A stretch of DNA of 44,163 bases from Candidatus Woesearchaeota archaeon (lineage in GTDB: Archaea > Nanobdellota > Nanobdellia > SCGC-AAA011-G17 > GW2011-AR20). Position 1 is the stretch's first letter. Each line of letters opens with the position of its first letter. Of this stretch, positions 129 to 16,810 are shown piece after piece. The DNA lies in contig JAGVZQ010000016.1 in the NCBI GenBank assembly GCA_018302465.1, positions 1 through 44,163 on the forward strand, given 5' to 3'. The position numbers and the translations under genes were made by a program. The notes under the pieces were generated by a model, which saw only the letters and a list, made by a program, of their open reading frames with translations, had not been told where the DNA came from and searched no databases.

Positions 129-178
129 TGGAAGGTTAAATGTTAAATTTTACGTCGTACTAGAAAGCTTTAAATATT

Positions 179-195
179 ACTTAGTATTACTAAGT
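179..195. promoter_or_regulatory. Palindromic operator candidate before the RHH antitoxin
   Basis: ACTTAGTA-T-TACTAAGT is a perfect 8-bp inverted repeat around one central base. It ends 6 nt before the ATG at 202 and sits just behind an AT-rich TATA-like stretch (TTTAAATATTA). Ribbon-helix-helix antitoxins commonly bind such palindromes to repress themselves; that role here is inferred. Confidence 0.6.
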
Positions 196-201
196 CTTAC
201 C

Positions 202-876: not shown

Positions 877-928
877 TTGTTGTTATTTATTGCAATTAAT
901 TTAAAAGTATTAGTATAATCAAATTATA

Positions 929-1132: not shown

Positions 1133-1281
1133 TGGCCAATCCCAAATTCCCATAAAACAACAGTGTTCTACCTCTAGAAGCGAAAACGCTATAACTTTCA
1201 TCCAATATCCTGCATAAAAGCATTAATTTACTTAAGTACAATAATAATTAAATACTTAGGAGACTAATAAGAGATTAAAAT
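1133..1281. promoter_or_regulatory. Intergenic spacer with BRO-gene promoter
   Basis: No ORF is visible here. An AT-rich TATA-like stretch (AATTAAATACTTA, about 1246-1258) lies about 25 nt before the ATG at 1282, a typical archaeal spacing for a short leader. A small inverted repeat, AGCG-AAAA-CGCT, lies near 1179-1190; its role is unknown. Confidence 0.4.
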
Positions 1282-1986
1282 ATGAAAAACGCAATAAAAC
1301 TCTTTCAAGACAAGAAAATCCGTGTTAAATGGGATTCTGATAAAGAGGAATGGTATTTTTCAATAGTGGATGTTGTTGTAGTATTAACGGATAATGATTT
1401 TCAAACGGCAAGAAAGTACTGGAATAAACTTGCCCAAAGATTACGGGAAGAAGGAAATGAGTCGGTGACAAATTGTCACCAACTGAAAATGCTGGCTTCT
1501 GATGGTAAATATTACAAGACTGATGTTGCAGATACAGAGCAATTGCTTCGTTTAATACAGTCAGTCCCTTCTAAAAAAGCAGAGCCATTCAAGATGTGGC
1601 TTGCAAGAGTTGGAAGGGAAAGAATTGATGAAACTCAAGATCCTGAGCTTGCTATTGACAGAGCTATGCAGACATATCTGCAGAAAGGCTATTCTAAGGA
1701 CTGGATTAATCAGAGATTAAAGACTATTGAGGTTAGAAAAGAACTGACTGATGAATGGAACAGAGTTGGTATTGAGAAACAAGAGGATTTTGCTATTTTA
1801 ACCAATGAGATTACAAAAGCTTGGTCTGGGAAGTCAGTTAAAGAATATAAGCAGTTTAAAGGAATTAAAAAAGAAAATTTAAGAGATAATATGACTAATC
1901 TGGAATTAATTTTGAATATGCTTGCAGATATAGAGTCTGATGAAGAAAAATTTGAAATGCCAATGCTAACAAAAATATTTTTATAA
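1282..1986 (+). CDS. BRO-N family (phage antirepressor-like) protein, probably C-truncated
   Basis: This 234-aa protein begins with a BRO-N-like domain: KLFQDKKIRVKWDSDKEEWYF and VVDVV-type strands, then a conserved EQLLRLIQSVPSKKAEPFK segment (about residues 87-105) and RERIDETQDPELAIDRA. Proteins of this family are common in prophages and archaeal mobile regions; some bind DNA. Family members I recall continue after MTNLELILNMLA with an EISK-type lysine-rich tail. Here that point is followed by an unrelated end (residues 217-234), so the C-terminus looks replaced. The stop overlaps by 6 nt the end of a HicA remnant on the opposite strand. Family assignment is good; function is unknown. Confidence 0.75.
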   Translation: MKNAIKLFQDKKIRVKWDSDKEEWYFSIVDVVVVLTDNDFQTARKYWNKLAQRLREEGNESVTNCHQLKMLASDGKYYKTDVADTEQLLRLIQSVPSKKAEPFKMWLARVGRERIDETQDPELAIDRAMQTYLQKGYSKDWINQRLKTIEVRKELTDEWNRVGIEKQEDFAILTNEITKAWSGKSVKEYKQFKGIKKENLRDNMTNLELILNMLADIESDEEKFEMPMLTKIFL

Positions 1987-2178
1987 GAATTCTTCAATAG
2001 GTATTCCTGTTTTTTTAGAAATTTTTCTATAAACTCCAATTGTTGTTAAAGGGAGAACAACAGTGATATTAATTTCTTCTTTGGAGAGAGAAACATGACT
2101 TCCTTTCTGTCTCTTAATTTCATAACCATTTTTAACAAGCACCCTAAGGATCTCTTTACCTCTAATAACTTTTGGAAG
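1981..2178 (-). pseudogene. HicA-like mRNA interferase remnant without start codon
   Basis: Reading the minus strand from 2178 to 1981 gives about 65 codons that look like HicA/YcfA. The order is PKVIRGKEILRVLVKNGYE, then the hallmark RQKGSHVSL with the catalytic His, then TVVLPL, and a C-terminal SKKTGIPIEEFL before TAA. The reading frame is otherwise intact. HicA normally starts a residue or two before PK, but here a CTT codon stands at that point and the DNA upstream is the tail of the dispersed 67-aa-ORF repeat (2176-2212). No ATG, GTG or TTG in frame lies nearby. The gene therefore seems to have lost its start at a repeat junction. No HicB partner is seen. Confidence 0.7.
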
Positions 2179-2212
2179 TTTTAATGAGAAGGTTTGGAAA
2201 GTTAATTGCTGG
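2176..2212 (+). repeat. Repeat B tail fragment
   Basis: TTTTAATGAGAAGGTTTGG and AAAGTTAATTGCTGG match the final codons (FNEKVWKVKC) of the 929-1132 ORF. The fragment abuts the broken 5' end of the HicA remnant. The following 60 bp also resemble the sequence after the copy at 5137-5248. Confidence 0.7.
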
Positions 2213-2230
2213 AATTTATTGGTTTTTTGA

Positions 2231-2287
2231 AAGTTTATATGGTTCTATAAGATACCAAATGGTAACCAAAAAGTTTATATAGTTCTA
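2231..2287. promoter_or_regulatory. Direct-repeat operator/promoter of the MNT-HEPN pair
   Basis: AAGTTTATAT(G/A)GTTCTA occurs at 2231-2247 and again at 2271-2287, exactly 40 bp apart, which is about four helical turns. The second copy contains the TATA-like TTTATAT about 25 nt before the ATG at 2303. Between them lie the dyads TACCA-AA-TGGTA (2253-2264) and TGGT-A-ACCA (2260-2268). The downstream gene starts with a helix-turn-helix, so autoregulation is a reasonable inference. Confidence 0.55.
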
Positions 2288-2302
2288 AATGAAACCAATT
2301 TT

Positions 2303-2872
2303 ATGCCCAAAACAAAAAAAACAATATTTGAAGAATCTGAAGCATTTTTAAAAACATTATACTTTTTTTTTGCGTTTCCTACAAAAGAGATGAGTCTTAA
2401 TGACCTAACAGAAGAAATAGGGATTTCAAAGACTACAGCAAATAGAGTGGTAACTATTTTAGAAGAAGAGGGGTTCTTAAAAAAACAAGTATTGGGAAAA
2501 ACCTGGAGGATATCCTGCAACCAGAATCATCCCTACAACACTACTGTTAAAATCCCCTATAATCTATGGATAATATATGAAACAGAGATTATAACAAAGA
2601 TTCATAAATTAATTGGGTCGTCAAGATCAATAATCCTTTTTGGAAGCTATAGAAAAGGAGATGATACAGAAGAATCAGACATAGATATTGCCGTTGAGGT
2701 ATTGGATAACAAAGAAATTGAAATATATGAAATTGGAAAAATGACTATTGGATACAGGAAGAATGTCCCGGTGAATGTTCATGTATTCTCAAGAAACAAA
2801 ATTGATTTAAACTTATTTGTAAATATAGCAAATGGAATTATATTGGAAGGATTTTTAGAGGTTAGACCATGA
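2303..2872 (+). CDS. HTH-fused minimal nucleotidyltransferase (MNT) protein
   Basis: This is a 189-aa two-domain protein. Residues 15-75 form a winged HTH (MSLNDLTEEIGISKTTANRVVTILEEEGFLKK). Residues 105-180 carry the nucleotidyltransferase motif IILFGSYRKGDD followed by ESDIDIAV, giving the GS and DxD residues that hold metal and nucleotide. MNT proteins paired with HEPN proteins act as antitoxins, in studied cases by AMPylating the HEPN toxin. The next gene, HEPN-like, starts inside its stop codon (ATGA overlap at 2869-2872), so the two are translationally coupled. The fused HTH suggests the antitoxin also represses the operon through the repeats at 2231-2287. Confidence 0.85.
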   Translation: MPKTKKTIFEESEAFLKTLYFFFAFPTKEMSLNDLTEEIGISKTTANRVVTILEEEGFLKKQVLGKTWRISCNQNHPYNTTVKIPYNLWIIYETEIITKIHKLIGSSRSIILFGSYRKGDDTEESDIDIAVEVLDNKEIEIYEIGKMTIGYRKNVPVNVHVFSRNKIDLNLFVNIANGIILEGFLEVRP

Positions 2873-3267
2873 GATATAAAAGACCAGATAAAAAAAATGC
2901 ATTAAGTCTGTTAGAAGCAGCAAGAAAGGATTTAAAGTTTACATTTACGATAAAGGTTTCAGAGGATTCAGGGTCAACAATAATAAGGAATATCCATAAC
3001 TCATTTAGAATGCTGGGAGATTCTCTGTTAGTATCAAAAGGTATTGAACCAACAGATCACATTACACCAATAAAAGAACTTTTAAAATTAAATATAAATA
3101 CGTCAAGACCAATAAATTTAATTGATAGTATAAGAAGACTGAGGAATAATATAAATTATTATGGTTACAGGCCGAAATTAAATGAAGTGGAAGATGTAGT
3201 GTCTATAGCAAAAACGTGTTTTGAACCTTTGTATAAAGAGGTGAAGAAAATAGTTTCTAAAATTTAA
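2869..3267 (+). CDS. HEPN-like protein, probable toxin partner of the MNT protein
   Basis: This 132-aa all-helical protein is placed directly after the MNT gene with a 4-nt overlap. HEPN ribonucleases carry an R-x4-6-H motif in a helix such as RNRLVHGY. The matching place here reads RRLRNNINYYGY (about residues 88-99), where Asn or Tyr stands in place of the usual His. That may mean a divergent active site or a lost nuclease activity. The layout (nucleotidyltransferase then HEPN) is the standard toxin-antitoxin order. The assignment rests on context plus the motif resemblance. Confidence 0.68.
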   Translation: MRYKRPDKKNALSLLEAARKDLKFTFTIKVSEDSGSTIIRNIHNSFRMLGDSLLVSKGIEPTDHITPIKELLKLNINTSRPINLIDSIRRLRNNINYYGYRPKLNEVEDVVSIAKTCFEPLYKEVKKIVSKI

Positions 3268-3275
3268 TGATCTAG

Positions 3276-3374
3276 CATGTTGGAGATACTAAAGGAAAGA
3301 TGAATACTACAAAGTTTGAGGATGAATGTTATGAAGAATATGTAGAAGGGAAGGTTTGGAAAGTTAAGTGTTAA
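3276..3374 (+). pseudogene. Repeat B copy: C-terminal fragment of the 67-aa ORF
   Basis: Thirty-two codons plus stop read HVGDTKGKMNTTKFEDE and end GKVWKVKC. They match the second half of the 929-1132 ORF with a few substitutions and a small length change. No start codon precedes the fragment in frame. Because changes keep the frame open, the copy may have been under selection for some time, or it may be young. Confidence 0.75.
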
Positions 3375-3410
3375 AGAAAGTTTTAAAAAGGATATAGATA
3401 TAGTATAATT

Positions 3411-3560
3411 ATGGAAACTATAACAATCCCAAAAGTTCAGTTTGAAAGAATGAAAGAGCAAATTGAGCTATTTAGCAATATAAAGATTTACAAGAGATTA
3501 TTACAATTTGAGCAAAATATATCAAAGAAAAAGTATACAAGAAAAGACTTAGGATTCTGA
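3411..3560 (+). CDS. Small antitoxin, module 1 (49 aa)
   Basis: This 49-aa ORF reads METITIPKVQFERMKEQIEL and ends KKYTRKDLGF. It has the shape of archaeal RelB-like antitoxins: an N-terminal beta strand, a helix and a C-terminal TR(K/E)DLG tail. A paralogue with about 85% identity lies at 6023-6172. Both are preceded by GGATAT(A/G)GATAT(A/G)GTATAA, a conserved promoter or operator. The ORF converges on the toxin gene (3549-3860) and overlaps its last 12 nt. It was found by reading the frame; conservation between two copies and the shared upstream site show it is a real gene. Confidence 0.78.
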   Translation: METITIPKVQFERMKEQIELFSNIKIYKRLLQFEQNISKKKYTRKDLGF

Positions 3561-3860
3561 TTTTCTTTTTAGCCTTAGAATTGTTTCTTTTTGTTTTTTT
3601 GTTGAAGTTTTCATTTCATATTCAAAAATGTAAATTTCTTCAGTAGTTAGATTATGTTTAAAATAAAGCCTTATTGGAGGGCTTTTCCTTTTTATTTCAT
3701 AGATATGTAATTTTGAATCAAGAAGATTTCCTGCATTAGGTCCCAACTCTTCAATTTTATCTAAAATTTTTGAAATTATCTCTTTTAGACCTTTGTTTTT
3801 GCTTAGATCTTTTAATTGTTTTAAAATTATTTCATCAAATACTAAATTATACCTTGCCAT
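3549..3860 (-). CDS. RelE/ParE-superfamily toxin, module 1
   Basis: This 103-aa protein reads MARYNLVFDEIILKQLKDL, then DKIEELGPNAG, then IYEIKRKSPPIRLYFKH, and ends YEMKTSTKKQKETILRLKRK. The pattern of an N-terminal strand and helix, a central Arg-rich strand (PPIRLYF) and a Lys-rich C-terminal helix fits RelE/ParE-type ribosome-dependent nucleases or gyrase poisons; which one cannot be told. The start at 3860 is chosen over an upstream ATG at 3881 because the paralogue at 6161-6472 begins at the same residue. The gene runs tail to tail into its antitoxin, so it needs its own promoter; a conserved palindrome at 3908-3923 is in the right place. Confidence 0.78.
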   Translation of the reverse strand: MARYNLVFDEIILKQLKDLSKNKGLKEIISKILDKIEELGPNAGNLLDSKLHIYEIKRKSPPIRLYFKHNLTTEEIYIFEYEMKTSTKKQKETILRLKRKSES

Positions 3861-3907
3861 AAATAAAGAATAGAGATACAAACTTAAATCTCTTTCGAAA
3901 AACTTTC

Positions 3908-3923
3908 ATCCATCCAGATGGAT
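3908..3923. promoter_or_regulatory. Palindrome upstream of the module-1 toxin
   Basis: ATCCATC-CA-GATGGAT is a perfect 7-bp inverted repeat 48 nt upstream of the toxin start. The other toxin module has the same palindrome at 6520-6535, where one C-G pair has become T-A on both arms. This compensating change suggests the dyad itself is kept, as an operator or an RNA hairpin. Confidence 0.55.
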
Positions 3924-4000
3924 TGAGTAGATAAGGAATAGATTCTTAATATTAAACCCAGAACAGTTAAAACTAATAAAGAAATTAGATATTTGTTATA
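3924..4000. repeat. Dispersed repeat A, copy 3 (partial)
   Basis: This copy follows the toxin palindrome and contains GAGTAGATAAGGAATAGATT and AGAACAGTTAAAACTAATAA, as in 6535-6600 and 1-60. The match fades after about position 4000. The 3861-4187 stretch, about 330 bases without a gene, holds this copy, a repeat B tail and the Fic promoter. Confidence 0.65.
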
Positions 4001-4051
4001 TTTCACGATTTAAAAAGGAAAGAAAAGGTTATAAAAATTATATGTTTTAAA

Positions 4052-4088
4052 AAGTTTAATGAAAATGTTTGGAAAGTTGAGTGTTAAG
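4052..4088 (+). repeat. Repeat B tail fragment
   Basis: AGTTTAATGAAAATGTTTGG then AAAGTTGAGTGTTAAG matches the last codons of the 929-1132 ORF and the tails at 1111-1132, 2176-2212 and 3351-3374. Only the tail is present. Confidence 0.6.
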
Positions 4089-4121
4089 TTACAAACCAAT
4101 CTAAAATAACAAATTCTTTAA

Positions 4122-4157
4122 ATATCGGATAACCTATTTTTTAGCCGATACCGATAT
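4122..4157. promoter_or_regulatory. Operator-like sites upstream of fic
   Basis: ATATCGG (4122-4128) is followed by CCGATA (4145-4150) and CCGATAT (4151-4157), giving inverted and direct half-sites. The last one runs into the TATA-like ATATATTTATATACT, and the chosen ATG is at 4188. The same half-sites flank the stop codon of the gene (5095-5130). The Fic protein has a C-terminal HTH and could be the binder. Confidence 0.55.
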
Positions 4158-4187
4158 ATTTATATACTTTTGAAATTTAAGAATATT

Positions 4188-5117
4188 ATGATTATTGACA
4201 ATGAGTTATATGAAATTATTCTAAAAAAGAAGAAGAAGTTAGTTTCACTTAGACCGTTGAATAAAGAGCAATTAAAATTAATAAGAGATCAAATAGAGAT
4301 AGAATATGTCTACAATTCTACAGCTATAGAAGGCAATACCTTAAGCTTAAATGAGACAAGGTTGATTTTAGAAGAGGGAATAACAATCTCAGGAAAGTCA
4401 TTGAGAGAGCACTTAGATGTTGTTAATCAAAAAGAAGCTATCTCGTGGATTGAAGATTTTATTAAAAATAAAGCTAAAATAAAAGAAGTTGATATCATAG
4501 AATTACATAGACTAACCTTAAAGGGGATTTCTAATTATTGGACTGGAAAATATAAGACTTCTCAAAATAGGATTCTTGGGTCAAAATTAAAAACAACTCC
4601 TCCTTATAAAGTGCATTCTGAAATGGATAAATTAATTTATGAAATTAGTGAGAATAAAGGCTTTAATGCAATAGAATTGGCTGCATATGCACACCATGAA
4701 TTAGTAAGAATCCATCCGTTTGTTGATGGGAATGGAAGAACTGCAAGGCTGCTGATGAACTTGATTTTAATGCGTGAAGGTTATCCTCCTGTTGTTATTA
4801 TAAAGAAAGAAAGAAAGAAATATTTTGATACTTTGGAAAAGGCGCATTTTGGCAATTTTAAAGATTTTTTTAACTTTATCGGGAGAGCTGTTGAAAGGTC
4901 ATTAAACTTATACTTGAATGCGTTAACTCCTACTACAAAAGAAAATGAATTAATACCATTAAAAGAATTGGCGAAAGAAACGAAGTATTCCCAGGAGTAT
5001 TTAAGTTTAAGAGCAAGACAGGGGAAATTGAATGCTACTAAAATTAATGGAATTTGGCATGTAGCGAGAAAAGATTTAAAGGACTATGTTAAATATATCG
5101 GTAATATGAATATTTAG
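4188..5117 (+). CDS. Fic-domain AMPylase with C-terminal HTH
   Basis: This 309-aa protein carries the Fic motif HPFVDGNGRTAR at residues 176-187, complete with the catalytic His and the phosphate-binding GNGR. The N-terminal inhibitory helix has S-TAI-EGN at residues 44-50, as in class II Fic proteins that restrain themselves. Residues about 255-309 (IPLKELAKETKYSQEYLSLRARQGKL and on) look like a MerR/excisionase-type HTH. Fic enzymes transfer AMP from ATP to target proteins. An in-frame TTG at 4170 would extend the protein by six residues but would overlap the TATA-like element, so the ATG at 4188 is preferred. The gene stands alone between repeat B fragments. Repeated inverted half-sites before the gene and across its stop suggest self-regulation. 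Confidence 0.88.
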   Translation: MIIDNELYEIILKKKKKLVSLRPLNKEQLKLIRDQIEIEYVYNSTAIEGNTLSLNETRLILEEGITISGKSLREHLDVVNQKEAISWIEDFIKNKAKIKEVDIIELHRLTLKGISNYWTGKYKTSQNRILGSKLKTTPPYKVHSEMDKLIYEISENKGFNAIELAAYAHHELVRIHPFVDGNGRTARLLMNLILMREGYPPVVIIKKERKKYFDTLEKAHFGNFKDFFNFIGRAVERSLNLYLNALTPTTKENELIPLKELAKETKYSQEYLSLRARQGKLNATKINGIWHVARKDLKDYVKYIGNMNI

Positions 5118-5130
5118 TAAATACCGATAT
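5095..5130. promoter_or_regulatory. Inverted repeat spanning the fic stop codon
   Basis: ATATCGGTA (5095-5103) and TACCGATAT (5122-5130) are perfect 9-bp arms around an 18-nt loop that contains the TAG stop (5115-5117). The half-site is the same as in the fic promoter. It could act as a hairpin at the mRNA end or as a second operator. Confidence 0.6.
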
Positions 5131-5136
5131 TTATAA

Positions 5137-5248
5137 AAGATCTCTTTATATTCATGTTGGAGATACTAAAGGAAAGATGAATACTACAAAATTTGATGAT
5201 AGTTGTTTTGAAAGGTTTAATGAAAAAGTTTGGAAAGTTGAATGCTGA
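5137..5248 (+). pseudogene. Repeat B copy: C-terminal fragment of the 67-aa ORF
   Basis: Beginning near AAAGATCTCTTTATATTCATG, this copy is almost identical over about 100 nt to 1030-1132. It encodes HVGDTKGKMNTTKFDDSCFE and ends VWKVEC before TGA. It has no start. The sequence that follows (TGCTGAAATTTACTGGT and further) also matches that after the tail at 2176-2212, so the repeat unit extends beyond the ORF. Confidence 0.78.
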
Positions 5249-5293
5249 AATTTACTGGTCTTATAAGATGCTGGCAATCAAAAAGCTTATAAA

Positions 5294-5307
5294 GTAGAAT
5301 ATTCTAC
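5294..5307. promoter_or_regulatory. Palindromic operator candidate before vapBC
   Basis: GTAGAAT-ATTCTAC is a perfect 14-bp palindrome, followed by a further half-site TAGTAGAA. It lies just downstream of a TATA-like CTTATAAAG and 19 nt before the antitoxin ATG at 5327. VapB antitoxins typically bind such sites. Confidence 0.5.
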
Positions 5308-5326
5308 TAGTAGAAAGGTGGTTAAA

Positions 5327-5594
5327 ATGGATGTATCAATAAAAATTCCTAAAAAGGGGATGTTGTTAATAAATAACTTAAAGAATAAGGAAGGATATAA
5401 CTGTAAATAATAAGGAGCTACTTTTTAGAGCTGTAGAGTTTAGTGCCAATAGAAAAGTTGATTTTATGAGAGAGTACATTAAAAGTGGGAAATTGGAGCA
5501 TGATAATACCAAGCAGATGACTACAAAATTCTTAATAGGAGAAAAGATAAAACTTGGAAAAAATTGGTTAAAGGAAATTGATTCTACATTATGA
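5327..5594 (+). pseudogene. VapB-type antitoxin gene interrupted by a +1 frameshift
   Basis: The ATG at 5327 opens a 27-codon frame (MDVSIKIPKKGMLLINNLK and on) that stops at 5410. From about 5398 the +1 frame is open to the TGA at 5592-5594. It reads VNNKELLFRAVEFSANRK, continues through REYIKSGKLEH and ends WLKEIDSTL. Together the two parts would make an antitoxin of about 88 residues, and the second part ends with an ATGA overlap on the VapC start. One extra base near GGATATAACTG would explain the break. It may be a true mutation, a sequencing error or recoding. The antitoxin function is inferred from position before an intact VapC. Confidence 0.65.
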
Positions 5595-5998
5595 TAAAAG
5601 AAGCTATTGTTGATTCTGGAGTTTGGATAGCCTCAAAAACAGAAGGTGAAGAAGGAGATAAAGCAAGAATAATTCTTGAAACTTTTTCAAATGGTGAGAT
5701 TAATACAATTTACATTACAAATTATATATTATTGGAAACTGTAAATTTTTTGTTAAGAAAAAAACATTTTAAGATTGCATTGGGGGTATATGATTACCTA
5801 ACAAAAACAGACAGAATAAAATTGATCCATATTGATGAGAGTATGTCTATGATTATAAGAGATCTCTTTGAGAAATATGAATCATTATCAATAACTGATT
5901 GTTCTATGGTTGCTTTGGCTGAAGATTTTGGCATAAAAACCGTATTTTCCTTTGATTCTGATCTGGACAGGGTTAAAAAAATAATAAGAAAGTTTTAA
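5591..5998 (+). CDS. VapC-family PIN-domain toxin
   Basis: This 135-aa PIN protein has all the expected acidic residues: IVDSGVW (Asp 8), LLETVNF (Glu about 49), SITDCSMVALAEDFG (Asp about 102) and TVFSFDSDLD near residue 120. VapC toxins are metal-dependent endoribonucleases acting on tRNA or rRNA. The start overlaps the stop of the frameshifted antitoxin (ATGA). An intact toxin behind a broken antitoxin is unusual unless the antitoxin is still made or is supplied elsewhere. The stop is followed within 25 nt by the start of the second small antitoxin (6023). Confidence 0.85.
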   Translation: MIKEAIVDSGVWIASKTEGEEGDKARIILETFSNGEINTIYITNYILLETVNFLLRKKHFKIALGVYDYLTKTDRIKLIHIDESMSMIIRDLFEKYESLSITDCSMVALAEDFGIKTVFSFDSDLDRVKKIIRKF

Positions 5999-6022
5999 AT
6001 AGGATATGGATATGGTATAAAT

Positions 6023-6172
6023 ATGGAAACAGTTACAATACCCAAAGTTCAGTTTGATAGAATGAAAGGGCAAATTGAGCTATTTAGCAATACTAAGCTT
6101 TACCAGAGGTTACTACAATTTGAACAGAATATTTCTAAGAAAAAATACACAAGAAAAGATTTAGGTTTCTGA
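6023..6172 (+). CDS. Small antitoxin, module 2 (49 aa)
   Basis: This is the paralogue of 3411-3560 with the same length and the same end. It reads METVTIPKVQFDRMKGQIEL and ends KKYTRKDLGF. The upstream GGATATGGATATGGTATAA matches the module-1 promoter. The ORF converges on the toxin at 6161-6472 and overlaps it by 12 nt, exactly as in module 1. Retention of length and overlap in two diverged copies supports a functional pair. Confidence 0.78.
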   Translation: METVTIPKVQFDRMKGQIELFSNTKLYQRLLQFEQNISKKKYTRKDLGF

Positions 6173-6472
6173 TTTTCTTTTTAATTTTGAAATTGTTTCT
6201 TTTTGCTTTTTGGAGGATGTTTTCATTTCATATTCAAAGATATATACTTCTCCAGTTAATAGGTCATGTTTAAAATAAAGCCTTATCGGAGGACTTTTTC
6301 TTTTTACTTCATAAATGTGCAATCTTGAATCAATAAGATACCCTGCGTAAGGACCTAGCTCTTCTATTTTATCCAATATTTTAGATATTAAATCTCTTAA
6401 GTTTTTATCTTTACCTAGACTTCTTAACTGTTTTAGAATTACTTCATCAAATACTAAGTTATACCTCTTCAT
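6161..6472 (-). CDS. RelE/ParE-superfamily toxin, module 2
   Basis: This 103-aa protein is roughly 80% identical to the module-1 toxin: MKRYNLVFDEVILKQLRSL, DKIEELGPYAG, YEVKRKSPPIRLYFKHD and a Lys-rich end KKQKETISKLKRK. Differences are conservative, so both copies look functional and diverged under selection. Like its paralogue it is tail to tail with its antitoxin and preceded by the conserved palindrome (6520-6535) and repeat A. Whether the two antitoxins can cross-neutralise the toxins is open. Confidence 0.78.
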   Translation of the reverse strand: MKRYNLVFDEVILKQLRSLGKDKNLRDLISKILDKIEELGPYAGYLIDSRLHIYEVKRKSPPIRLYFKHDLLTGEVYIFEYEMKTSSKKQKETISKLKRKSET

Positions 6473-6519
6473 ATATATGAAATATAAATATAACCTTAAA
6501 TTCTTTTCGAAAAATTTTC

Positions 6520-6535
6520 ACCTATCCAGATAGAT
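6520..6535. promoter_or_regulatory. Palindrome upstream of the module-2 toxin
   Basis: CTATC-CA-GATAG forms a 5-bp perfect core (6522-6526 with 6529-6533) about 50 nt upstream of the toxin start. It corresponds to the module-1 palindrome with a paired C-G to T-A change. Confidence 0.5.
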
Positions 6536-6537
6536 TG

Positions 6538-6656
6538 AGTAGGTAAGGCATAGATTCTTAAGATAAAGCCAAGAGCAGTTAAAACTAATAAAGACAATAA
6601 AAATTTATTTTTTGGAAGTTTTAATTAAAAATTAAGATTTATAAAATGAATTATTC
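6538..6656. repeat. Dispersed repeat A, copy 2
   Basis: TTGAGTAGGTAAGGCATAGA, then AGCCAAGAGCAGTTAAAACT, then TTTTTTGGAAGTTTTAATTA correspond to 1-100 with few changes. The copy ends inside the last codons of the protease gene (stop at 6651), so the repeat marks the right border of the accessory island. Confidence 0.75.
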
Positions 6657-7589
6657 ACAAGCTTTAATATAGCTTTCTATAATTTCTCTTATTCTTCCAG
6701 AACCAGTATAGATTCCTAATTTAACTTCCTGACCTGCAGGAAGATCCCCCCTAACGACACTTATCTCATCCCTTGTTGTTAAAATTCCAGCTAGGTTATT
6801 TCTAAAGTCAAAAACTGGAGAACCAGAATTACCTTGTATTACTCCTGCTATGAAAGCAGATTGTCCTTCAGCACATAATTTTCTTCCATTCCCTAATGTT
6901 ACATCTATAACTCTTCCTATCTCTATTTTTGCACCTAAACCATTTTCCCCATTTCTAACGAGCAACTCTGTCTGGGAAAAAGATAATTGTGAATCTTCAT
7001 TATACCTAATATTTCCATTTTGAATTAGGTCTGCAAATGTGGATTTAATCCTAAGTCTATCTGTGTAGGATGGAAAATATACCATTTCTAAGGGCGGATT
7101 ATTTGAACTAGATATTCTTGTTGTTGGTGTTGAAAAATGAGGAGGTAAATCAATCTTTCCTAAAAAGATATCATCTTTTGTAGAATGTACTAGTGGTCTT
7201 GCAGGCAGAGCATATCCTTTTATAGGATCATAAACAAGCATAATTTTTCCTTCTTCGTATGCATGATCCGCTGTTAAGAAGAACCCTTGGTCATTCAATA
7301 CAAATGCACTTCCAGTAGATGTTAGTTCTCCCTTAATTCCAATATTTTCAGGATTTAAAGAGAAGTTATAAATTATTGCAGGCCATCTATCAGCGTTTAG
7401 ATGAACTGCTCCTGTATTTTCATCAGTCTGAATTTCTGATTCATCAACTTCAAGAACTTCCCTTAATGAAGCTAATTCTTCTCTAGAAACTTCATTTAGA
7501 ATATTAAAATCAGAAGCTTCCAGTCTAAATGGGGACATAGCTAGTATAGCTGCTAATGATGTTTTTCTTAAAAAGTCTCTTCTTTCCAT
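6651..7589 (-). CDS. Tat-exported trypsin-like serine protease
   Basis: This 312-aa protein begins with a twin-arginine signal (MERRDFLRKTSLAAILAM), so it is probably exported folded. The protease core shows the catalytic triad. His is in FLTADHA (residue 109), Asp in TKDDIFLGKI (139 or 140) and Ser in IQGNSGSPVF (255). The first strand GSAFVLNDQGFFLTADH is typical of HtrA/trypsin-type enzymes, but no PDZ domain follows; the last 50 residues are short and partly helical. The substrate is unknown; degradation of surface or host proteins is possible. The stop lies in repeat A. A TATA-like stretch is present in 7600-7650. Confidence 0.85.
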   Translation of the reverse strand: MERRDFLRKTSLAAILAMSPFRLEASDFNILNEVSREELASLREVLEVDESEIQTDENTGAVHLNADRWPAIIYNFSLNPENIGIKGELTSTGSAFVLNDQGFFLTADHAYEEGKIMLVYDPIKGYALPARPLVHSTKDDIFLGKIDLPPHFSTPTTRISSSNNPPLEMVYFPSYTDRLRIKSTFADLIQNGNIRYNEDSQLSFSQTELLVRNGENGLGAKIEIGRVIDVTLGNGRKLCAEGQSAFIAGVIQGNSGSPVFDFRNNLAGILTTRDEISVVRGDLPAGQEVKLGIYTGSGRIREIIESYIKACE

Positions 7590-7765
7590 TTATTTAAAAT
7601 GTAATTTACTCTTTATATACCTTTCTTTTTTATACCACTTATAAGTAATAATTAAAATGCTAAAAGTTAAATGTTAGGAGTTAAGTATATTCAGTTTGAA
7701 AAGCGGGGATTGAGCACTACATTGTTTAAAAAAAAGTTTTTAAGCTTATTTATAATCTGTTTTGA
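7590..7765. promoter_or_regulatory. Divergent promoter region between protease and sigma gene
   Basis: There is no ORF here. TATA-like sequences lie on both sides: ACTCTTTATATACC for the minus-strand protease and AAGCTTATTTATAATC (about 7741-7756) for the sigma gene at 7766. The sigma gene thus appears to be read from an archaeal promoter. Confidence 0.45.
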
Positions 7766-8644
7766 ATGGTTAGATATCATACATTAAGCGCAAAAAGAAC
7801 TTACAATAGTGAGAGGATTCCTGATCCTACGGATGTTCTTGCTGTTTATCTAAGGGAAGTTAGATTTGTTAGTGATGTGTTGACTGATGAAGAACAAAGG
7901 AGTCTTGCTCGTAGAATGAGGCAGGGAGATGAAGATGCCAGGAATAGATTGGTAGAGGCTAATCTAAAATTTGTTTTGTTCATGGCAAAATTTTTCATGA
8001 ATAAAGGCGTTCCAATGGAAGAGTTAATTCAGGCCGGCAACTATGGTTTATTAAAGGCGACTGAAAGATTTGATGATACAAAAGGGTTTAAATTTATTAC
8101 TTATGCTTCTAAATATGTAAGAAACGAGATGCACCTTGCTGCGGCAAGAGAGAGAAGAAACGTCAGGATTTCTCATGAAATGGATGATTATTCTTATAAA
8201 GTTAAAAGAGTTTTTCGTGAGTTAGAGCAAGAAGGGAAGGATCCTTTAGCACATCTGGATTATGTGGCTGAAAGGCTTGATGTTGATGAAGAGTATGTAT
8301 TGAGTATATTAGCTGTATCTTTTCCTGAGAGGTCATTAGATAAAAATGTTAACAATGATGATAGAGCATTATCTGAGTTTATACCTGATGGATCCCAAGA
8401 GCTAGCAGATCAATTCGTTATCGATCAGGACTTAAGACATACATTATATAAGGCATTATCAGGATTAGAAGAAAGGGAGGCTACAGTTTTAAAATTATTT
8501 TTTGGTTTTGGTGATAACGAACCATTAACCTTAAAACAAATTGGAGATGTTATCGGAGTAACAAGAGAAAGAGTAAGGCAGATTAAAGAGGAAGCATTAG
8601 CAAGGCTAAGACGCCGTTCAAGGGGATTAGAACAACTTATTTAA
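7766..8644 (+). CDS. Bacterial-type sigma-70 family RNA polymerase sigma factor
   Basis: This 292-aa protein has every region of a group 2/3 sigma-70 factor. Region 1.2 is DPTDVLAVYLREV (residues 21-33). Region 2 runs about 60-135, with RLVEANLKFVLFMAKFF, MEELIQAGNYGLLKATERF and FKFITYASKYVRNEM. Region 3 lies around 145-200 and region 4 around 225-285, with LTLKQIGDVIGVTRERVRQI. In bacteria region 2 melts the -10 element and region 4 binds the -35 element. The WW pair in the usual YATWWIRQ segment is replaced (YASKYVRN), so promoter melting may differ. Archaea use TBP and TFB instead. A 2013 single-cell survey of uncultured lineages did report complete sigma factors in archaea, so this is rare but not unprecedented. 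The last 8 nt overlap the FKBP gene on the other strand. Confidence 0.93.
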   Translation: MVRYHTLSAKRTYNSERIPDPTDVLAVYLREVRFVSDVLTDEEQRSLARRMRQGDEDARNRLVEANLKFVLFMAKFFMNKGVPMEELIQAGNYGLLKATERFDDTKGFKFITYASKYVRNEMHLAAARERRNVRISHEMDDYSYKVKRVFRELEQEGKDPLAHLDYVAERLDVDEEYVLSILAVSFPERSLDKNVNNDDRALSEFIPDGSQELADQFVIDQDLRHTLYKALSGLEEREATVLKLFFGFGDNEPLTLKQIGDVIGVTRERVRQIKEEALARLRRRSRGLEQLI

Positions 8645-9110
8645 TTTCAACTAATTCAATATTAAAATTAAGAATTTTTCCTGCTAATGGATGATTTGCA
8701 TCAACTTTAATTGAATCAGAATTAACTTCAAGAACTTTTGCTTTTACCTGATTTTTATCTGGAGTTTGTAAAAGAGCTGTGTCTCCCACCAAAGGAGGGG
8801 TATCATCGTATTTTATTGGTATTTCCATTATTAATTCGGGATTTACAAGGCCATAAGCTTCTTCTGGCTGTATTTTAATATCTTTTTTATCTCCAATTTT
8901 CATTCCAAGAACTGCATTTTCAAAACCAGGGATTACTTCATGGTCTCCTACAGTGAAGGTTAACAGCTCTCCGTTAGACTGATCAAATATTTCTCCATCA
9001 TCAAAAGAGCCAATATAATTAACAGAAATTAAATCTCCTGGCTTAACCTCAGAATTAGAGCATCCTGACAATATAATCAAAAATAATGCAAATAGCAACT
9101 TAAACTTCAT
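8637..9110 (-). CDS. FKBP-type peptidyl-prolyl isomerase, lipoprotein
   Basis: This 157-aa protein has a lipoprotein signal (hydrophobic LLFALFLIILSGC, lipobox Cys at residue 17). It is followed by an FKBP domain: GDLISVNYIGSFDDGEIFD, VIPGFENAVLGMKIGDKK and PEEAYGL. The insert between the last two blocks is of the long archaeal/SlyD type. It would catalyse proline cis-trans isomerisation and act as a chaperone for secreted proteins, anchored on the outer face of the membrane. It converges on the sigma gene with an 8-nt overlap and has its own promoter beyond 9110. Confidence 0.9.
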   Translation of the reverse strand: MKFKLLFALFLIILSGCSNSEVKPGDLISVNYIGSFDDGEIFDQSNGELLTFTVGDHEVIPGFENAVLGMKIGDKKDIKIQPEEAYGLVNPELIMEIPIKYDDTPPLVGDTALLQTPDKNQVKAKVLEVNSDSIKVDANHPLAGKILNFNIELVEIK

Positions 9111-9213
9111 TTTAGTTAATTTAAATCAATGTTTTAAAAAGATAGTTATTTTGGAGTGTATATTTAACCAGAAGCTTTCTTAAAAAATGAAGAAAATTTA
9201 CTAACTGTATTAA

Positions 9214-9239
9214 CTCCTTCCATGTAATTAAGGAAGGAG
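9214..9239. promoter_or_regulatory. Perfect 8-bp inverted repeat in the 9111-9276 spacer
   Basis: CTCCTTCC (9214-9221) and GGAAGGAG (9232-9239) flank a 10-nt loop. The dyad sits just before the TATA-like AGTTTATATATATG that serves the gene at 9277. It has no T-tract on the plus strand, so an operator is more likely than a terminator. Confidence 0.5.
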
Positions 9240-9276
9240 AATAAGTTTATATATATGTTCTTTAAGACATGGCGCT

Positions 9277-9579
9277 ATGTTTATAATTCCTGATGGATTA
9301 AGAGTAGGGTTAGAAAAATTAACTGGCAGACTTTCAGAGGAGGAAGTTGATATTTATGATTCTATTAAAGCATTGGAGGAGGTATTAAGACGCCCTGCTA
9401 GTTTAGAAGTTCTTCGGATGTACAGACAAAGGGAAATACCAAGAGTTTATGAGAATTATTTTCGATGTGAGGATAATACACGCAAAGTTTACTTCCACCA
9501 AAGAATTCATGGTATTAGGGAAGAATTTGACAGGAGAATTGAAGATATCACTAATGAACCAAGTGTGGTATATAACTAA
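9277..9579 (+). CDS. Hypothetical protein, 100 aa
   Basis: This is a charged protein with no signal peptide or membrane segment, probably helical (LSEEEVDIYDSIKALEEVL). It is rich in Arg (RMYRQREIPRVYENYFR). I recognise no family. The start at 9277 follows a TATA-like element by about 27 nt; an ATG at 9269 is closed by a stop after five codons. Arginine codons include several CGN, unlike nearby conserved genes, which use AGA/AGG. It stands alone before the giant surface protein. Confidence 0.6.
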   Translation: MFIIPDGLRVGLEKLTGRLSEEEVDIYDSIKALEEVLRRPASLEVLRMYRQREIPRVYENYFRCEDNTRKVYFHQRIHGIREEFDRRIEDITNEPSVVYN

Positions 9580-9644
9580 TAGTCTTCTAAATATATTCTA
9601 AAAGAAAGAAATGTTTATAAAAAGCAGATACTCTATTTATTTCA

Positions 9645-12600
9645 ATGTTAAAAAGAGGATTGAAAAAACATTTATTTAGTGGAGTATTTACAGTTATAGT
9701 TATTGCATTATTAATTCTGGCTACGCCTGCAAATGCTATAGATGTTGCCTTAAACACACCAGATATTAATGCAGAAACTGATTTATTTAAAACATTAACA
9801 ATTGAAGTTGATATTCATAATGGAGAGTTCTTACCTTTAGCTTTTACACAAATTGATTTTGACAATAATGCAGGGGATTTGAGAACTTGTACGATTGATG
9901 ATACAAATGCTGTTCTTGGCTGTGATTTTTTAAGTGTTTTATCTAAAGATACTACAGGATTATTATCTGGGAATGGGTTTGGTTACGGTTACGGTTATGG
10001 TTACGGTTATGGTTACGGTTATGGCAGTGGAATTCTAGGATATTCAACAGATTTTGGTTTTGACACAGGAACAATAGTTTATACTTTAGAAGTTGATGTT
10101 TCAAAGTTACCTACCACATTTTTACAAAAAACAATAAATGCAGAAGCAAGAGTTTATGGTGCTGATGCTTCATTTTACACAGGACAAAGTGTATTTTCAG
10201 TATTAGGGTTGACTAATGGAGTTGCAGTTAACAAGTCTTTGGGGGAATTAACTTTTGATACAATAAAGAAAGAGAATACTGCAGTTAATGAGATAAAGAC
10301 AAACTTAAACTTAGTTCAATTAACTCCAGACAATGTTGTTGTTACATGGGGTTCTTCAAATATTAATGTAATAAATCCATTTAGTGGGCAGGTAAAGAGG
10401 CCTGTTTATACTGATACAGACAAAGCAGTTACATTAACAGCCACTTTAACAAAAGGAACTTCAGTTAATACAAAATCCTTCAGTTTAACTGTATTAAAAG
10501 AGCAAAAATCAGACACTCAATCAGTTGATGATGCCTTAACTATTTTAGTCATAAATGATTTATTAGGAAGCAATGTTGTTTCAACAAGCATTACAAGCGA
10601 TCTAGTATTACCAAGTATAGGGATAGATGGAACTTTAATAGCATGGAGTTCTTCAAATAAGAGTGTAATAGAAACTAGCGGAAGTGTAATAAGGCCTGGA
10701 TTTGATACTTCTGTTACATTAACTGCTAATGCAAAGAAAGGAGTAATAAGTAAGACTAAACAATTTACATTTATTGCTAAGGGAACAACTGATTTAAATG
10801 AATTGACTGTTAATACTGCTAAATTAGCCTTAACTAGTTCATCTGTGTTAAATGGAAATCCTGCAAAAGACAATATATTAGGAGATGTGGTTCTTAGAAC
10901 AAGCTTAACAGGATATCCAGGAGTTGCAATCAGTTGGGGTTCAAGCAATACAAGCATTGTTGCCTTAAACGGAAGTGTATTCAGAGATAATATAGAAGAT
11001 AAGCAGGTTACATTAACTGCTACATTAAGCAAATCTGGAAAGACTGCAACAAAGACTTTTGAATTAACGATTAAAAAGAAAATACCTCCTGCTGTAGCTG
11101 TGGCTGGTAAAGTAGAGATGAATGAGGGGGAAGAAGAGGTAGTAATTGATACTACAAATACAAATAGTATAAGTGAAGTTCAAATTCCTAATACTGTGAA
11201 TGAAACACAGTCAATTACATTAAATGTACAGAAATTGGTTGATCAATCCACAAAGCAGTTACAATTAGCTTCAAATCAGAGTTTGACTCTAACTAGAAAG
11301 TCAAGTAGTGCTGGAAATGACATAAAAGTTGAAATACCCCAGGGAACAAAGATACAGGGAGAAGCTAACTGGAATGGATTAATTATTGCTCCAACTATAA
11401 AGACCACAACAGACGTTACTGTTACATCTGGAACTACAAAGAAGGTTGTTGAAGTTGGACTTTCAAGCGGTAAATTAACATTTGATAAGGCTACTAAATT
11501 AACTATACCTGGAGAAGCAGGAGAGAGTGCAGGATTTGTAAGAGATGGTGTGTTTACTGTAATACCTGCTTGTACAGCTGGACAAATAGCTGATCCTAAT
11601 ACATTACCTGCAGAAGGAGATTGCTTCACAACTTCAGGAGCTGATTTAATTATCTGGACAAAGCACTTCACACAGTTTGTTTCATTTACTCCAAATCCAG
11701 AGGTATGTGATGGAACAGACAATGATGGAGATACTTTAGTTGATGAAGGAGTTACAACAACATTCTACAGAGATAGTGATGGAGATGGGTATGGGGATAA
11801 TAACTTCCCAACACAAGCATGTGGCGTTCCAACAAATTATGTAAGTAATAATCAGGACTGTAATGATGGAAGCGTTTCTGTAAAACCTGGAGCTACAGAG
11901 GTTTGTAATGGTGTAAATGATAATTGTGCAAATGGAATAGATGAAGGGGGAGTATGCAGTGTTCCAGGTGTTGAAATATGTAATAATATAGATGATGATA
12001 CAGATGGACAAACAGATGAAGGATTAACAAGAAGCATAACTTGTGGAACAGGAGTATGTGGTGCTTCAGCTACACAGACATGTAATGCAGGAAATTGGGT
12101 TGGAACATGCAGTCCTAATAGCGGAAATGCAAGACAGGAAGTAGCAGATAGTGCTGATAATGATTGTGATGGACAAGTAGATAATGGATTTTCATCATTT
12201 ACTTTCTACTTAGATACAGATGGAGATGATTTTGGACAGGGAGATGCAAGGATACAATCATCAATTCCTCAAGGTCAATATAGCGCTTTAGTTGCTGGAG
12301 ATTGCAGACCTGGAGATAAATCTTCATATCCTGGAGCTACAGAATTGTGTGATGGTAATGATAATAACTGTAATAATTTACCAGATGATGTGGAAAATAT
12401 AAAGACTCAATGTTATGATGTTGCTGATAGGAAATATGCTGGGGTTGGAGCATGCAGTTATGGTTATTACACATGTTTGGGAGATAAATTCTCAGACTCA
12501 TGTACAGGAGATGTAGCTCCAATTGCTGAAATATGTGATGGATTAGATAATGATTGTAATGGTCAGACTGATGAAATATTTGATGGAGATGGAGATGGCT

Positions 12601-14372
12601 ATACAACTTGTGGTACTAAGACTGATGGAACAGACAAAATAGTGGATGCAAGAGTTGACTGTAGAGATAATGATTCTACAATAAGTCCAGGCACACAGGA
12701 AATGTGTAATGGAGTAGATGATGACTGTTCTGGAACAGAGGATGATAATTTAGTATATCCTAATGCAGATAATCAAAATGGAGTATGTGCAGGTGTAGTT
12801 AAAGTATGTCAAGGTGTGTTAGGATGGGAAGAGCCAGAATATAGTTTAGTAGAAGATTATGAGGAAGGACAAGAATTAACTTGTGATGGCAGAGATAATA
12901 ACTGTGATGGCAGGACAGATGAAGGACATCCTAATTTAGATGGAGATAGACTTGCTGATTGTGTTGATCCAGATGCAGATAATGATAGAATAGTCGATAA
13001 TAGGGATGCAATAATTGGAACTCCTGTAGATTCAAATTCAAATGCTGCCTATAAATTTATTATAGCAGGAGACGAGTTTACAGGCAGAGGGGTACGGGAA
13101 ATAGATGGAAGAAGACAAATTTCAATAGAAGAAGATGGAAGGACTTTAGCATGGTTGAGTTATATATTTGACCCTACTAATTTACTAGACTTCAGGGATG
13201 TTATATTGAATTCAATATCACAGCCAGTTGATGAAACAGGAAGAGGATCTTCATTATTAATTTCAGGAGTTAACTCTCCATCAGATGTAAGGAAATCATA
13301 CTTGATAAAGAGATTTGATAATCCGTCAAATAATATGGTATGTGTAAAGACCTCCCAGATAAATTCAATTGAGCAGATGAGTGCTGGATGTACAATGTCA
13401 GATGAATTGTTAATACCATGTAATGGGAGAAATGTATTAGGATTTAGATGTACACAAACTGTTAAGGATGGAGTTGATATTTATAGAGTAGATGGTGTTG
13501 GCTATTATGCAATTAGTGAAGTAAGTATAACTCCAAGTGATTTTAGCAGGGATAATAAGGTAGACTTTGATGACTTCTTTGCATTTGCAGATCACTTTGG
13601 AACAGACTCATCAAATCCAGGATGGAATAGGGTATTTGATATAACATATGATAATAAGGTAGACTTTGATGACTTCTTTGCATTTGCAGATCACTTTGGA
13701 GAAGGACTTCCAGCATCACAACAAGCAAGAATGAAGACAGTTTCAACTGAAACATTCCTTGCTTTATTAAGCTCTCCTGAGGTGTGTGATAGTAGGGATA
13801 ATAATGGAGATGGAAGTGTAGATGAAGATCTTACACAATTAACCGGAGATACTGATGAAGGAACTTGCGATTATGGTTTAGATAAATGTATGAATGGAGA
13901 ATGGGTTGTAATAGCTGAGCCCGATAATAGTTGTGAAGAAGTGAGTAGTTCATCTGATAGAGGAAGTAGAAGTTCAAGCAGGCATGTTTCAACTTGTGAA
14001 GGTTCAGTAAGCTGTTCATGGTCTGAGTTAAATGAGGCTTCAAATGGATGCGGAGAATTAAGATGCAGCAATTCATGCGGAGAATTATGGGTGGAGGAAA
14101 CATTAAGCTGCCAACCATCAACAGAGACACCTACACAAACAGTACCTACAACAAATACACAGCCAGCTAAGAAACCAGCAGCTGTACAACAACCTGAAGC
14201 ATGTGAGTTAAAAGGAGACTTTGATGACAATGGAAGAGTTGATTATGAGGATTTCTATCCATTTGCAGATAACTTTGGAAGTAATGTTGAAGAGTATGAT
14301 ATAACTGGCGATGGAAGAGTAGATTATGAAGACTTCTACCTACTTGCAGATGACTTCGGAAAGAGCTGCTAA
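9645..14372 (+). CDS. Giant secreted protein with Ig-like, MopE-like metal-binding and dockerin-like repeats
   Basis: This 1,575-aa protein starts with a signal peptide (about residues 1-31, ending TPANAI). A first beta-rich domain contains a Gly-Tyr run at residues 110-128. Three or four Ig-like repeats (about 195-480) share the pattern VxxWGSSNxxVI and VTLTATL, as in atrophied bacterial Ig domains. After a beta domain (500-680) come about nine MopE-like motifs of the form CDGxDNDCDGxxDEG, between residues 687 and 1090 plus one near 1381; these Asp-rich loops probably bind calcium or another metal. Two EF-hand/dockerin-like pairs (DNKVDFDDFFAFADHFG) lie near 1297-1352 and 1521-1575. A Ser-rich and a Pro/Thr linker separate the ends. 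No C-terminal membrane anchor is present, so it is either released or held by a cohesin-like partner. A role in adhesion to a host cell is inferred. Confidence 0.85.
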   Translation: MLKRGLKKHLFSGVFTVIVIALLILATPANAIDVALNTPDINAETDLFKTLTIEVDIHNGEFLPLAFTQIDFDNNAGDLRTCTIDDTNAVLGCDFLSVLSKDTTGLLSGNGFGYGYGYGYGYGYGYGSGILGYSTDFGFDTGTIVYTLEVDVSKLPTTFLQKTINAEARVYGADASFYTGQSVFSVLGLTNGVAVNKSLGELTFDTIKKENTAVNEIKTNLNLVQLTPDNVVVTWGSSNINVINPFSGQVKRPVYTDTDKAVTLTATLTKGTSVNTKSFSLTVLKEQKSDTQSVDDALTILVINDLLGSNVVSTSITSDLVLPSIGIDGTLIAWSSSNKSVIETSGSVIRPGFDTSVTLTANAKKGVISKTKQFTFIAKGTTDLNELTVNTAKLALTSSSVLNGNPAKDNILGDVVLRTSLTGYPGVAISWGSSNTSIVALNGSVFRDNIEDKQVTLTATLSKSGKTATKTFELTIKKKIPPAVAVAGKVEMNEGEEEVVIDTTNTNSISEVQIPNTVNETQSITLNVQKLVDQSTKQLQLASNQSLTLTRKSSSAGNDIKVEIPQGTKIQGEANWNGLIIAPTIKTTTDVTVTSGTTKKVVEVGLSSGKLTFDKATKLTIPGEAGESAGFVRDGVFTVIPACTAGQIADPNTLPAEGDCFTTSGADLIIWTKHFTQFVSFTPNPEVCDGTDNDGDTLVDEGVTTTFYRDSDGDGYGDNNFPTQACGVPTNYVSNNQDCNDGSVSVKPGATEVCNGVNDNCANGIDEGGVCSVPGVEICNNIDDDTDGQTDEGLTRSITCGTGVCGASATQTCNAGNWVGTCSPNSGNARQEVADSADNDCDGQVDNGFSSFTFYLDTDGDDFGQGDARIQSSIPQGQYSALVAGDCRPGDKSSYPGATELCDGNDNNCNNLPDDVENIKTQCYDVADRKYAGVGACSYGYYTCLGDKFSDSCTGDVAPIAEICDGLDNDCNGQTDEIFDGDGDGYTTCGTKTDGTDKIVDARVDCRDNDSTISPGTQEMCNGVDDDCSGTEDDNLVYPNADNQNGVCAGVVKVCQGVLGWEEPEYSLVEDYEEGQELTCDGRDNNCDGRTDEGHPNLDGDRLADCVDPDADNDRIVDNRDAIIGTPVDSNSNAAYKFIIAGDEFTGRGVREIDGRRQISIEEDGRTLAWLSYIFDPTNLLDFRDVILNSISQPVDETGRGSSLLISGVNSPSDVRKSYLIKRFDNPSNNMVCVKTSQINSIEQMSAGCTMSDELLIPCNGRNVLGFRCTQTVKDGVDIYRVDGVGYYAISEVSITPSDFSRDNKVDFDDFFAFADHFGTDSSNPGWNRVFDITYDNKVDFDDFFAFADHFGEGLPASQQARMKTVSTETFLALLSSPEVCDSRDNNGDGSVDEDLTQLTGDTDEGTCDYGLDKCMNGEWVVIAEPDNSCEEVSSSSDRGSRSSSRHVSTCEGSVSCSWSELNEASNGCGELRCSNSCGELWVEETLSCQPSTETPTQTVPTTNTQPAKKPAAVQQPEACELKGDFDDNGRVDYEDFYPFADNFGSNVEEYDITGDGRVDYEDFYLLADDFGKSC
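9981..10022 (+). repeat. Hexanucleotide tandem repeat encoding Gly-Tyr
   Basis: Seven units of GGTTAC or GGTTAT in a row encode (GY)7 within the giant secreted protein, with a less regular GY at each side. Unit length is a multiple of three, so slippage would change length without a frameshift. Confidence 0.85.
13551..13700 (+). repeat. Perfect 51-bp direct repeat in the dockerin-like pair
   Basis: The 51 bp from 13551 to 13601 are repeated exactly at 13650-13700, including all third codon positions. They encode DNKVDFDDFFAFADHFG twice. Identity at silent sites means a recent duplication or gene conversion. Confidence 0.85.
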
Positions 14373-14383
14373 TTTTTTCTTTT

Positions 14384-14605
14384 TTATTTAATTAAAATTC
14401 TATATAAGAAAAAAATGAGAGTTAATAATAAACTAAGGATTATAGATGTTGTTAGAGGAAAGTAAGCCTTGAAGTTTCCTTTGTCTATAACAAAATCTCC
14501 AGGAAGCCTGCCTAAAGGGACATATTTGCCTCCAAACTGCCATAATAATCCTAGTGCTAATAAGATTATACCTGCAATAATCAGTGTTTGCGGTAGAGAG
14601 TTCAT
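14384..14605 (-). CDS. DUF2905-family small membrane protein
   Basis: This 73-aa protein has two membrane segments (residues 5-24 and 50-70) flanking the conserved GRLPGDFVIDKGNFKAYFPL stretch. That pattern matches the DUF2905 family of short bacterial and archaeal membrane proteins; the function is unknown. It stands convergent to the giant secreted protein with an 11-nt gap and has its own promoter near 14620-14640. Confidence 0.85.
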   Translation of the reverse strand: MNSLPQTLIIAGIILLALGLLWQFGGKYVPLGRLPGDFVIDKGNFKAYFPLTTSIILSLLLTLIFFLYRILIK

Positions 14606-14688
14606 GGGAATTATAATGATTAGTATGATTTAAGTAGTTTTAGTTTATTACACAATAAAAATTATAAATTAAAAATTTAGAAGATTAT

Positions 14689-15354: not shown

Positions 15355-15402
15355 CAATAGCAATCTTTTTAAACTCAAATTTTCAGTTTTTAAAGGAATA
15401 AA

Positions 15403-15765: not shown

Positions 15766-15766
15766 A

Positions 15767-16809: not shown

Positions 16810-16810
16810 A

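Follow-up and report, generated by a model that had tools for sequence, protein, structure and literature searches.

A divergent sigma-70 protein of bacterial descent encoded in a woesearchaeotal genome with TBP and TFB

Sigma factors in bacteria and TFB in archaea are usually viewed as separate solutions to transcription start. The gene analysed here, P0001, raises the question of what a sigma-70 protein may do in an archaeon that also has TBP and TFB. It lies on a stretch of 44,163 nucleotides (the window), which is contig C14 of the 748,631-base genome of a Candidatus Woesearchaeota archaeon, 97.7% complete with 0.18% contamination and of a small size that suits DPANN archaea. This genome encodes TBP, a normal TFB (on contig C20, separate from the sigma gene) and one Rpb1-type clamp gene, an archaeal Rpo1N, and P0001 accordingly belongs with the archaeal (DPANN) sigma-70 genes. 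The features discussed below, along with a second sigma-70 gene on contig C23 of the same genome, are listed in Table 1.

Table 1. Positions of P0001, its conserved regions and its neighbours in the window, and of the second sigma-70 gene of the genome
Feature	Position	Strand	Basis or remark
Sigma-70 gene P0001	7766..8644	+	ATG start, 292 aa; ORF, Pfam, PDB relatives, fold match
Region 1.2, residues 23-56	7832..7933	+	Sigma70_r1_2, Pfam-A, 2.9e-7
Region 2, residues 62-131	7949..8158	+	Pfam-A r2, 5.1e-14
Region 3, residues 144-213	8195..8404	+	Pfam-A r3, 3e-7
Region 4, residues 230-282	8453..8611	+	Pfam-A r4, 2.3e-17
Rewritten melting / -10-reading segment FITYASKYVRNEMH, residues 110-123	8093..8134	+	Residue alignment
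-35 recognition helix core TRERVRQ, residues 266-272	8561..8581	+	Counterparts of R584, E585, R588, Q589
Archaeal BRE/TATA-like element AAAAAAGTTTTTAAG	7730..7744	+	Same spacing as TATA peak of other window genes
Trypsin-like protein P0002, twin-arginine (Tat)-like start MERRDFLRK	6651..7589	-	Divergent neighbour of P0001
FKBP-type peptidyl-prolyl isomerase	8637..9110	-	Convergent neighbour of P0001
Second sigma-70 gene, 283 aa, -10 reader WWVRQ	L064 11926-12777 (contig C23)		Archaeal TATA box

An earlier note on the window had described P0001 as a complete sigma-70 factor, and this was borne out: regions 1.2, 2, 3 and 4 were all matched above the curated Pfam-A cut-offs, that is, the core regions 2 and 4 of the family plus 1.2 and 3. 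Region 1.1 is absent, as it is from the ~285-aa RpoD proteins of FCB bacteria, and a Pfam search at 0.001 found sigma-70 families alone, with no TFIIB-type repeats. Matches in the PDB were to primary sigma factors, with SigA at 9e-49; the RpoD equivalog cut-offs were missed, the best RpoD and RpoS models scoring 187 of 572 and 193 of 379 bits. It can be seen from the AlphaFold model (mean pLDDT 81, pTM 0.45, low at residues 1-15 and in the linker 188-209) that P0001 matches SigA/RpoD chains from solved initiation complexes over nearly its full length, at low TM-scores of ~0.46, which we read as the domains of the free protein being predicted in a different arrangement.

A trivial explanation for the gene would be an assembly chimera or bacterial binning contamination, since the best named relatives of P0001 by sequence are bacterial RpoD proteins. 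The identity to these is only ~40%, however, and the same contig codes for L18e, L13, S9, the PheRS subunits and an IF-2-like GTPase. In addition, an archaeal promoter precedes P0001, and a P0001-like protein (E <= 1e-10) occurs in 82 of 371 genomes sampled across the phylum; several of these carry two to four copies, and some are assemblies of only 1 to 3 contigs. The sole Rpb1-type clamp gene is archaeal in sequence, which indicates that the genome has no bacterial beta'. We therefore rejected contamination as the source of P0001, in line with the earlier note, which had seen no obvious sign of it, on the grounds of the archaeal contig, the promoter, the genome quality and the recurrence across the phylum, and we regard such an artefact as scarcely credible. 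The statement that the gene lies between archaeal genes is correct for the contig as a whole but not for its immediate flanks, which are a trypsin-like gene lacking family orthologues and an FKBP gene, near a toxin-antitoxin-like island.

The presence of sigma-70 in an archaeon is not exceptional. Archaeal sigma factors were reportedly found in a 2013 survey by Rinke et al. Among the window's genome and 60 relatives, 27 of the 61 gave a Sigma70_r2 match, and the window's genome itself has a second sigma with the Trp pair intact. Sigma-70 genes have been described as prevalent in Woesearchaeota, with mis-binning excluded and no anti-sigma factors in DPANN (PMC8204110, 2021). Sigma-70 in these archaea is thus an already known phenomenon and P0001 is not a first. 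No anti-sigma gene was named among the P0001 neighbours that we scanned, and a DPANN metaproteome paper makes no mention of sigma.

The ancestry of P0001 points to bacteria. Nearly all of its best 80 loci were RpoD-like and from FCB bacteria (Gemmatimonadota, Latescibacterota, KSB1, Bacteroidota and others), and a careful tree placed it within the FCB-type RpoD lineage (Gemmatimonadota, Bacteroidota), with a branch at 99/97 separating this lineage from the RpoD of E. coli and Firmicutes, a placement that is new here and from which bacterial ancestry follows. P0001 sits on a long branch in both the careful and a quick tree, and its placement is given at the level of the FCB-type group. This group also takes in several archaeal sigmas from its family and order, among them the C23 copy; the careful tree requires 7 label changes for archaeal sigmas, and entry into archaea by one or by several transfers would both be compatible with these sequences. 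We found no relative of P0001 above ~40% identity in its order, in the phylum sample or in phages or plasmids, and a DNA-pattern search of genome_contigs and viral_contigs for close relatives found none. A phage or plasmid origin was rejected, as the matches there were RpoD-like, at most ~40% identical and no nearer than bacterial RpoD. We conclude that P0001 is a genuine sigma-70 protein, encoded by an archaeon and of bacterial descent. What follows on its expression, DNA binding, polymerase contact and targets is predicted from sequence.

TATA elements of the genes in the window peak between -30 and -26 relative to the start codon, a leaderless pattern. Upstream of P0001 the TATA part TTTTTAAG lies at 7737-7744 behind AAAAAAG and spans -29 to -22 relative to the ATG, the spacing of a leaderless gene, and the archaeal TATA promoter noted previously thus fits the peak of the other genes. 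The C23 sigma gene has a promoter box, AAAAGTTTTAAAG, at about -34 to -22, and a similar AT box near -30 was seen by eye in most of 13 archaeal sigma genes. That both sigma genes of one genome are preceded by archaeal BRE/TATA boxes near -30 is a new observation, and the boxes before these genes suggest that the host TBP/TFB system transcribes them. Paired -35/-10 sites were not in excess over positions 1-20000 (101 sites against 93.5 +/- 10.9 in shuffles), in keeping with the earlier remark that none were evident.

We then consider the residues with which P0001 would read DNA, given here in E. coli numbering and compared with 49 archaeal sigmas. In sigma-70, residues 433, 434, 437 and 440 act in -10 recognition and melting, and residues 584, 585, 588 and 589 in reading the -35 element. 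K116, Y117, N120 and H123 of P0001 occupy the sites of E. coli W433, W434, Q437 and T440; the Trp pair is therefore missing, as had been stated, and P0001 lacks both this pair and the Q437 of group 1 primary sigmas (RpoD/SigA). Among the archaeal sigmas, W433 is kept in 40/49, W434 in 44/49 and Q437 in 44/49, and these positions read W, W and Q in the C23 sigma, so that a single genome has one sigma whose -10 reader is intact and another in which it is rewritten. E. coli RpoH also deviates here, with H, W and A at the three sites, which makes a change of this kind compatible with altered specificity. In region 4.2, by contrast, R584, E585, R588 and Q589 are all present in P0001 and almost invariant among archaeal sigmas, which suggests that DNA reading is under selection. 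Also new here is that the -35-reading helix is retained alongside changes in the -10 reader (W433K, W434Y, Q437N), in a genome whose C23 sigma keeps all three residues.

One reading of these data is that P0001 is a working alternative sigma that forms a holoenzyme with archaeal RNA polymerase through the clamp coiled coil and directs it to non-TATA starts without TBP and TFB. All sigma regions are present, the clamp coiled coils of E. coli beta' and archaeal Rpo1N are homologous, and several sigma copies per genome would be expected of alternative factors. Region 2.2 contacts the clamp in bacteria, and it is fairly well retained in the archaeal sigmas (N409 in 44/49, E407 in 37/49), as are most of the DNA-reading residues; with the whole -10 reader kept in most archaeal sigmas, this would favour a real sigma role, and it would be premature to suppose that every contact with the polymerase has gone. 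P0001 itself, however, has an A at the E407 site and has lost the Trp pair, the sigma genes are themselves behind TATA promoters, and -35/-10 pairs are not enriched in the 20 kb tested.

The polymerase argues further against this reading. In E. coli beta', the clamp residues R275, E295 and A302 contact sigma; the host clamp has I, L and H in their place, and the 46 sigma-bearing and sigma-free genomes compared were alike at these sites, giving no sign of clamp co-adaptation. Two separate genes encode Rpo2 in the window's genome (L250, G000:C16), and pairwise alignment of a host Rpo2 part with E. coli beta left the flap-tip helix opposite a gap. Clamp binding of the bacterial kind, to which the earlier note had pointed, finds no support in the host polymerase, and a polymerase with neither the beta flap-tip helix nor the known clamp-coil sigma-contact residues, a further new finding, is probably not one on which a bacterial-type holoenzyme assembles. 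We thus consider a working alternative sigma unlikely, if still worth attention. The same doubtful standing applies to the wider proposal that two initiation systems share one archaeal RNA polymerase, TBP/TFB serving most genes and a re-adapted sigma-70, with a second specialised sigma, serving a few genes without TBP/TFB.

Archaeal sigmas are also poorly conserved. In five independent syntenic genome pairs, where orthology rests on position, sigma ranked lowest in conservation four times and second lowest in the fifth pair, with identities of 47, 35, 47, 47 and 41% against mostly 55-88% for the neighbours (the single lower neighbour had 44%); this marked difference between syntenic sigmas and their surroundings is likewise new. 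Within the window's family, sigma identities are 31-47% against 69-91% for the first part of Rpo1N, while RpoD proteins of different FCB phyla share 55-85%. An orthologue of P0001 was found in none of twelve family genomes, nor was one of its divergent protease neighbour P0002. Taken together, the missing orthologues and the low identity relative to Rpo1N indicate that P0001 is not a housekeeping gene. The low conservation could reflect decay, or repeated replacement by other sigmas at one place, instead of fast divergence.

This bears on the possibility that P0001 was acquired recently or is decaying and does little or nothing for the cell, for which its long branch, the lack of family orthologues and its accessory surroundings could be cited. 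A sigma of a relative, G011 (L067 742-1788), has an in-frame TAG ahead of region 4.2, which may mark a pseudogene or a truncated protein, or be an error in the sequence. Yet the P0001 frame is intact with all regions and a promoter at the normal place, its -35 readers are kept despite ~60% divergence, and other genomes of the family retain their sigma genes within stable neighbourhoods. A relic therefore seems to us rather improbable.

The region of P0001 looks accessory, being near an island (469-5998) with two PIN domain genes, BRO-N, a winged-helix nucleotidyltransferase and Fic. Fic genes also lie less than 5 kb from sigma genes in L074 and L077, which may be chance. With such neighbours (BRO-N, Fic, PIN), and with fast sigma divergence and the affinity of sigma for bacterial polymerase, P0001 might be thought to act on a foreign polymerase, either exported into a bacterial partner or aimed at a mobile element. 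This we judge quite improbable, given that no signal peptide is apparent by eye, that no bacterial partner is known, that the promoter is archaeal and that viral contigs hold no relative.

Elsewhere in the window, 9645-14372 (+) codes for a protein of 1575 aa that contains aBig_2 and several MopE-type metal-binding motifs and is probably located at the cell surface, and 17582-18469 (-), adjoining tRNA-Pro, for a homologue of pentameric ligand-gated ion channels (Neur_chan_LBD, 1.5e-8). At 36538-39945 (+), DnaK and DnaJ of bacterial type score above their NCBIfam cut-offs and flank a 176-aa gene to which no library gave a name, and weak NCBIfam matches suggest that 40401-41390 (+) fuses an antidote-like DNA-binding start to a PhoU-like part.

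The gene cluster around the C23 sigma has the order DRG, 122-aa protein, Ogg, sigma, glutaredoxin, 149-aa protein, O-methyltransferase (OMT), Lgt, 139-aa protein and PTH2, and is partly retained in sister genomes. In G008 and G011, sigma adjoins PTH2 at the opposite end of the cluster. In G003, G005, G009 and G012, which are free of sigma, Ogg and PTH2 share a region that has no sigma and no recognisable glutaredoxin, OMT or Lgt between the two genes. Lgt is a bacterial lipoprotein-modifying enzyme. The cassette of glutaredoxin, the 149-aa protein (with a HELMH motif), OMT and Lgt (L064 12804-14780) is present in sigma-bearing family members and was not recognised in sigma-free ones, and it is a candidate sigma target. 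In G001, of the same genus, an archaeal 8-oxoguanine glycosylase gene with an in-frame intein (Intein_splicing, 1.4e-27, and LAGLIDADG_3) stands directly before sigma (L065 3009-5138); the glycosylase gene of the window's genome has no intein. Three sigmas (L066 8482-9687, L067 742-1788 and L068 7926-9416) carry N-terminal extensions of ~120-220 aa, in which no known domain scored above the Pfam cut-off and stretches such as YSISESMRILNTSARYIESLTRDGVIKL resemble MerR-type helix-turn-helix.

The reading that we prefer, and to which we give roughly an even chance, is that P0001 is a lineage-specific, rapidly diverging accessory DNA-binding factor whose polymerase contact has either re-evolved or been lost, and not a housekeeping sigma. 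We favour it because of the combination of a sigma fold, a genome with TBP and TFB, BRE/TATA boxes, FCB affinity and altered docking sites; against it, too, is that the -35/-10 search of positions 1-20000 found no target motif. Its ancestor would have been the RpoD of an FCB-type bacterium (on the Gemmatimonadota/Bacteroidota/Latescibacterota side) that passed into small-genome archaea, where the host TBP/TFB would transcribe it from its own TATA promoter. The product would most likely serve as an accessory transcription factor that recognises specific sequences and has few targets. Its region 4, with the intact TRERxRQ helix, and its altered region 2 would read promoter-proximal DNA, and P0001 might then help archaeal RNA polymerase to select or open such promoters through a re-evolved contact, or block TBP/TFB there; it would probably not assemble a bacterial-style holoenzyme. 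Any weight beyond the five readings weighed here falls to cases that we have not thought of.

The nearest described counterpart is fam00359 (PMC8204110), which likewise comprises sigma-70 genes in small archaeal genomes with TBP and TFB and for which no anti-sigma is reported; P0001, which is likened and not assigned to it, differs in its rewritten -10 reader and the lack of a close relative. FCB RpoD proteins (Gemmatimonadota, Bacteroidota, Latescibacterota) resemble P0001 in length, best matches and tree position as well as in lacking region 1.1, but share only ~40% identity with it and are conserved housekeeping factors, while P0001 has lost the Trp pair, Q437 and E407 and is not. E. coli RpoH also departs at W433 and Q437, yet P0001 has lost W434 as well and does not group with RpoH in the tree. 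Archaeal TFB is, like sigma, an initiation factor built of helix-turn-helix units, and homology of the two has been proposed (PMC8131849), although P0001 has no TFIIB-type repeat and the TFB of its genome is a separate gene.

The rapid divergence of sigma within conserved neighbourhoods suggests that these genes are more than imported housekeeping factors. Archaea with both sigma and TFB offer a natural test of whether sigma can adapt to an archaeal-type polymerase, and matched material for it is at hand in the two sigmas of this genome, whose -10 readers are intact in one case and rewritten in the other, and in sigma-bearing and sigma-free sisters with the same clamp.
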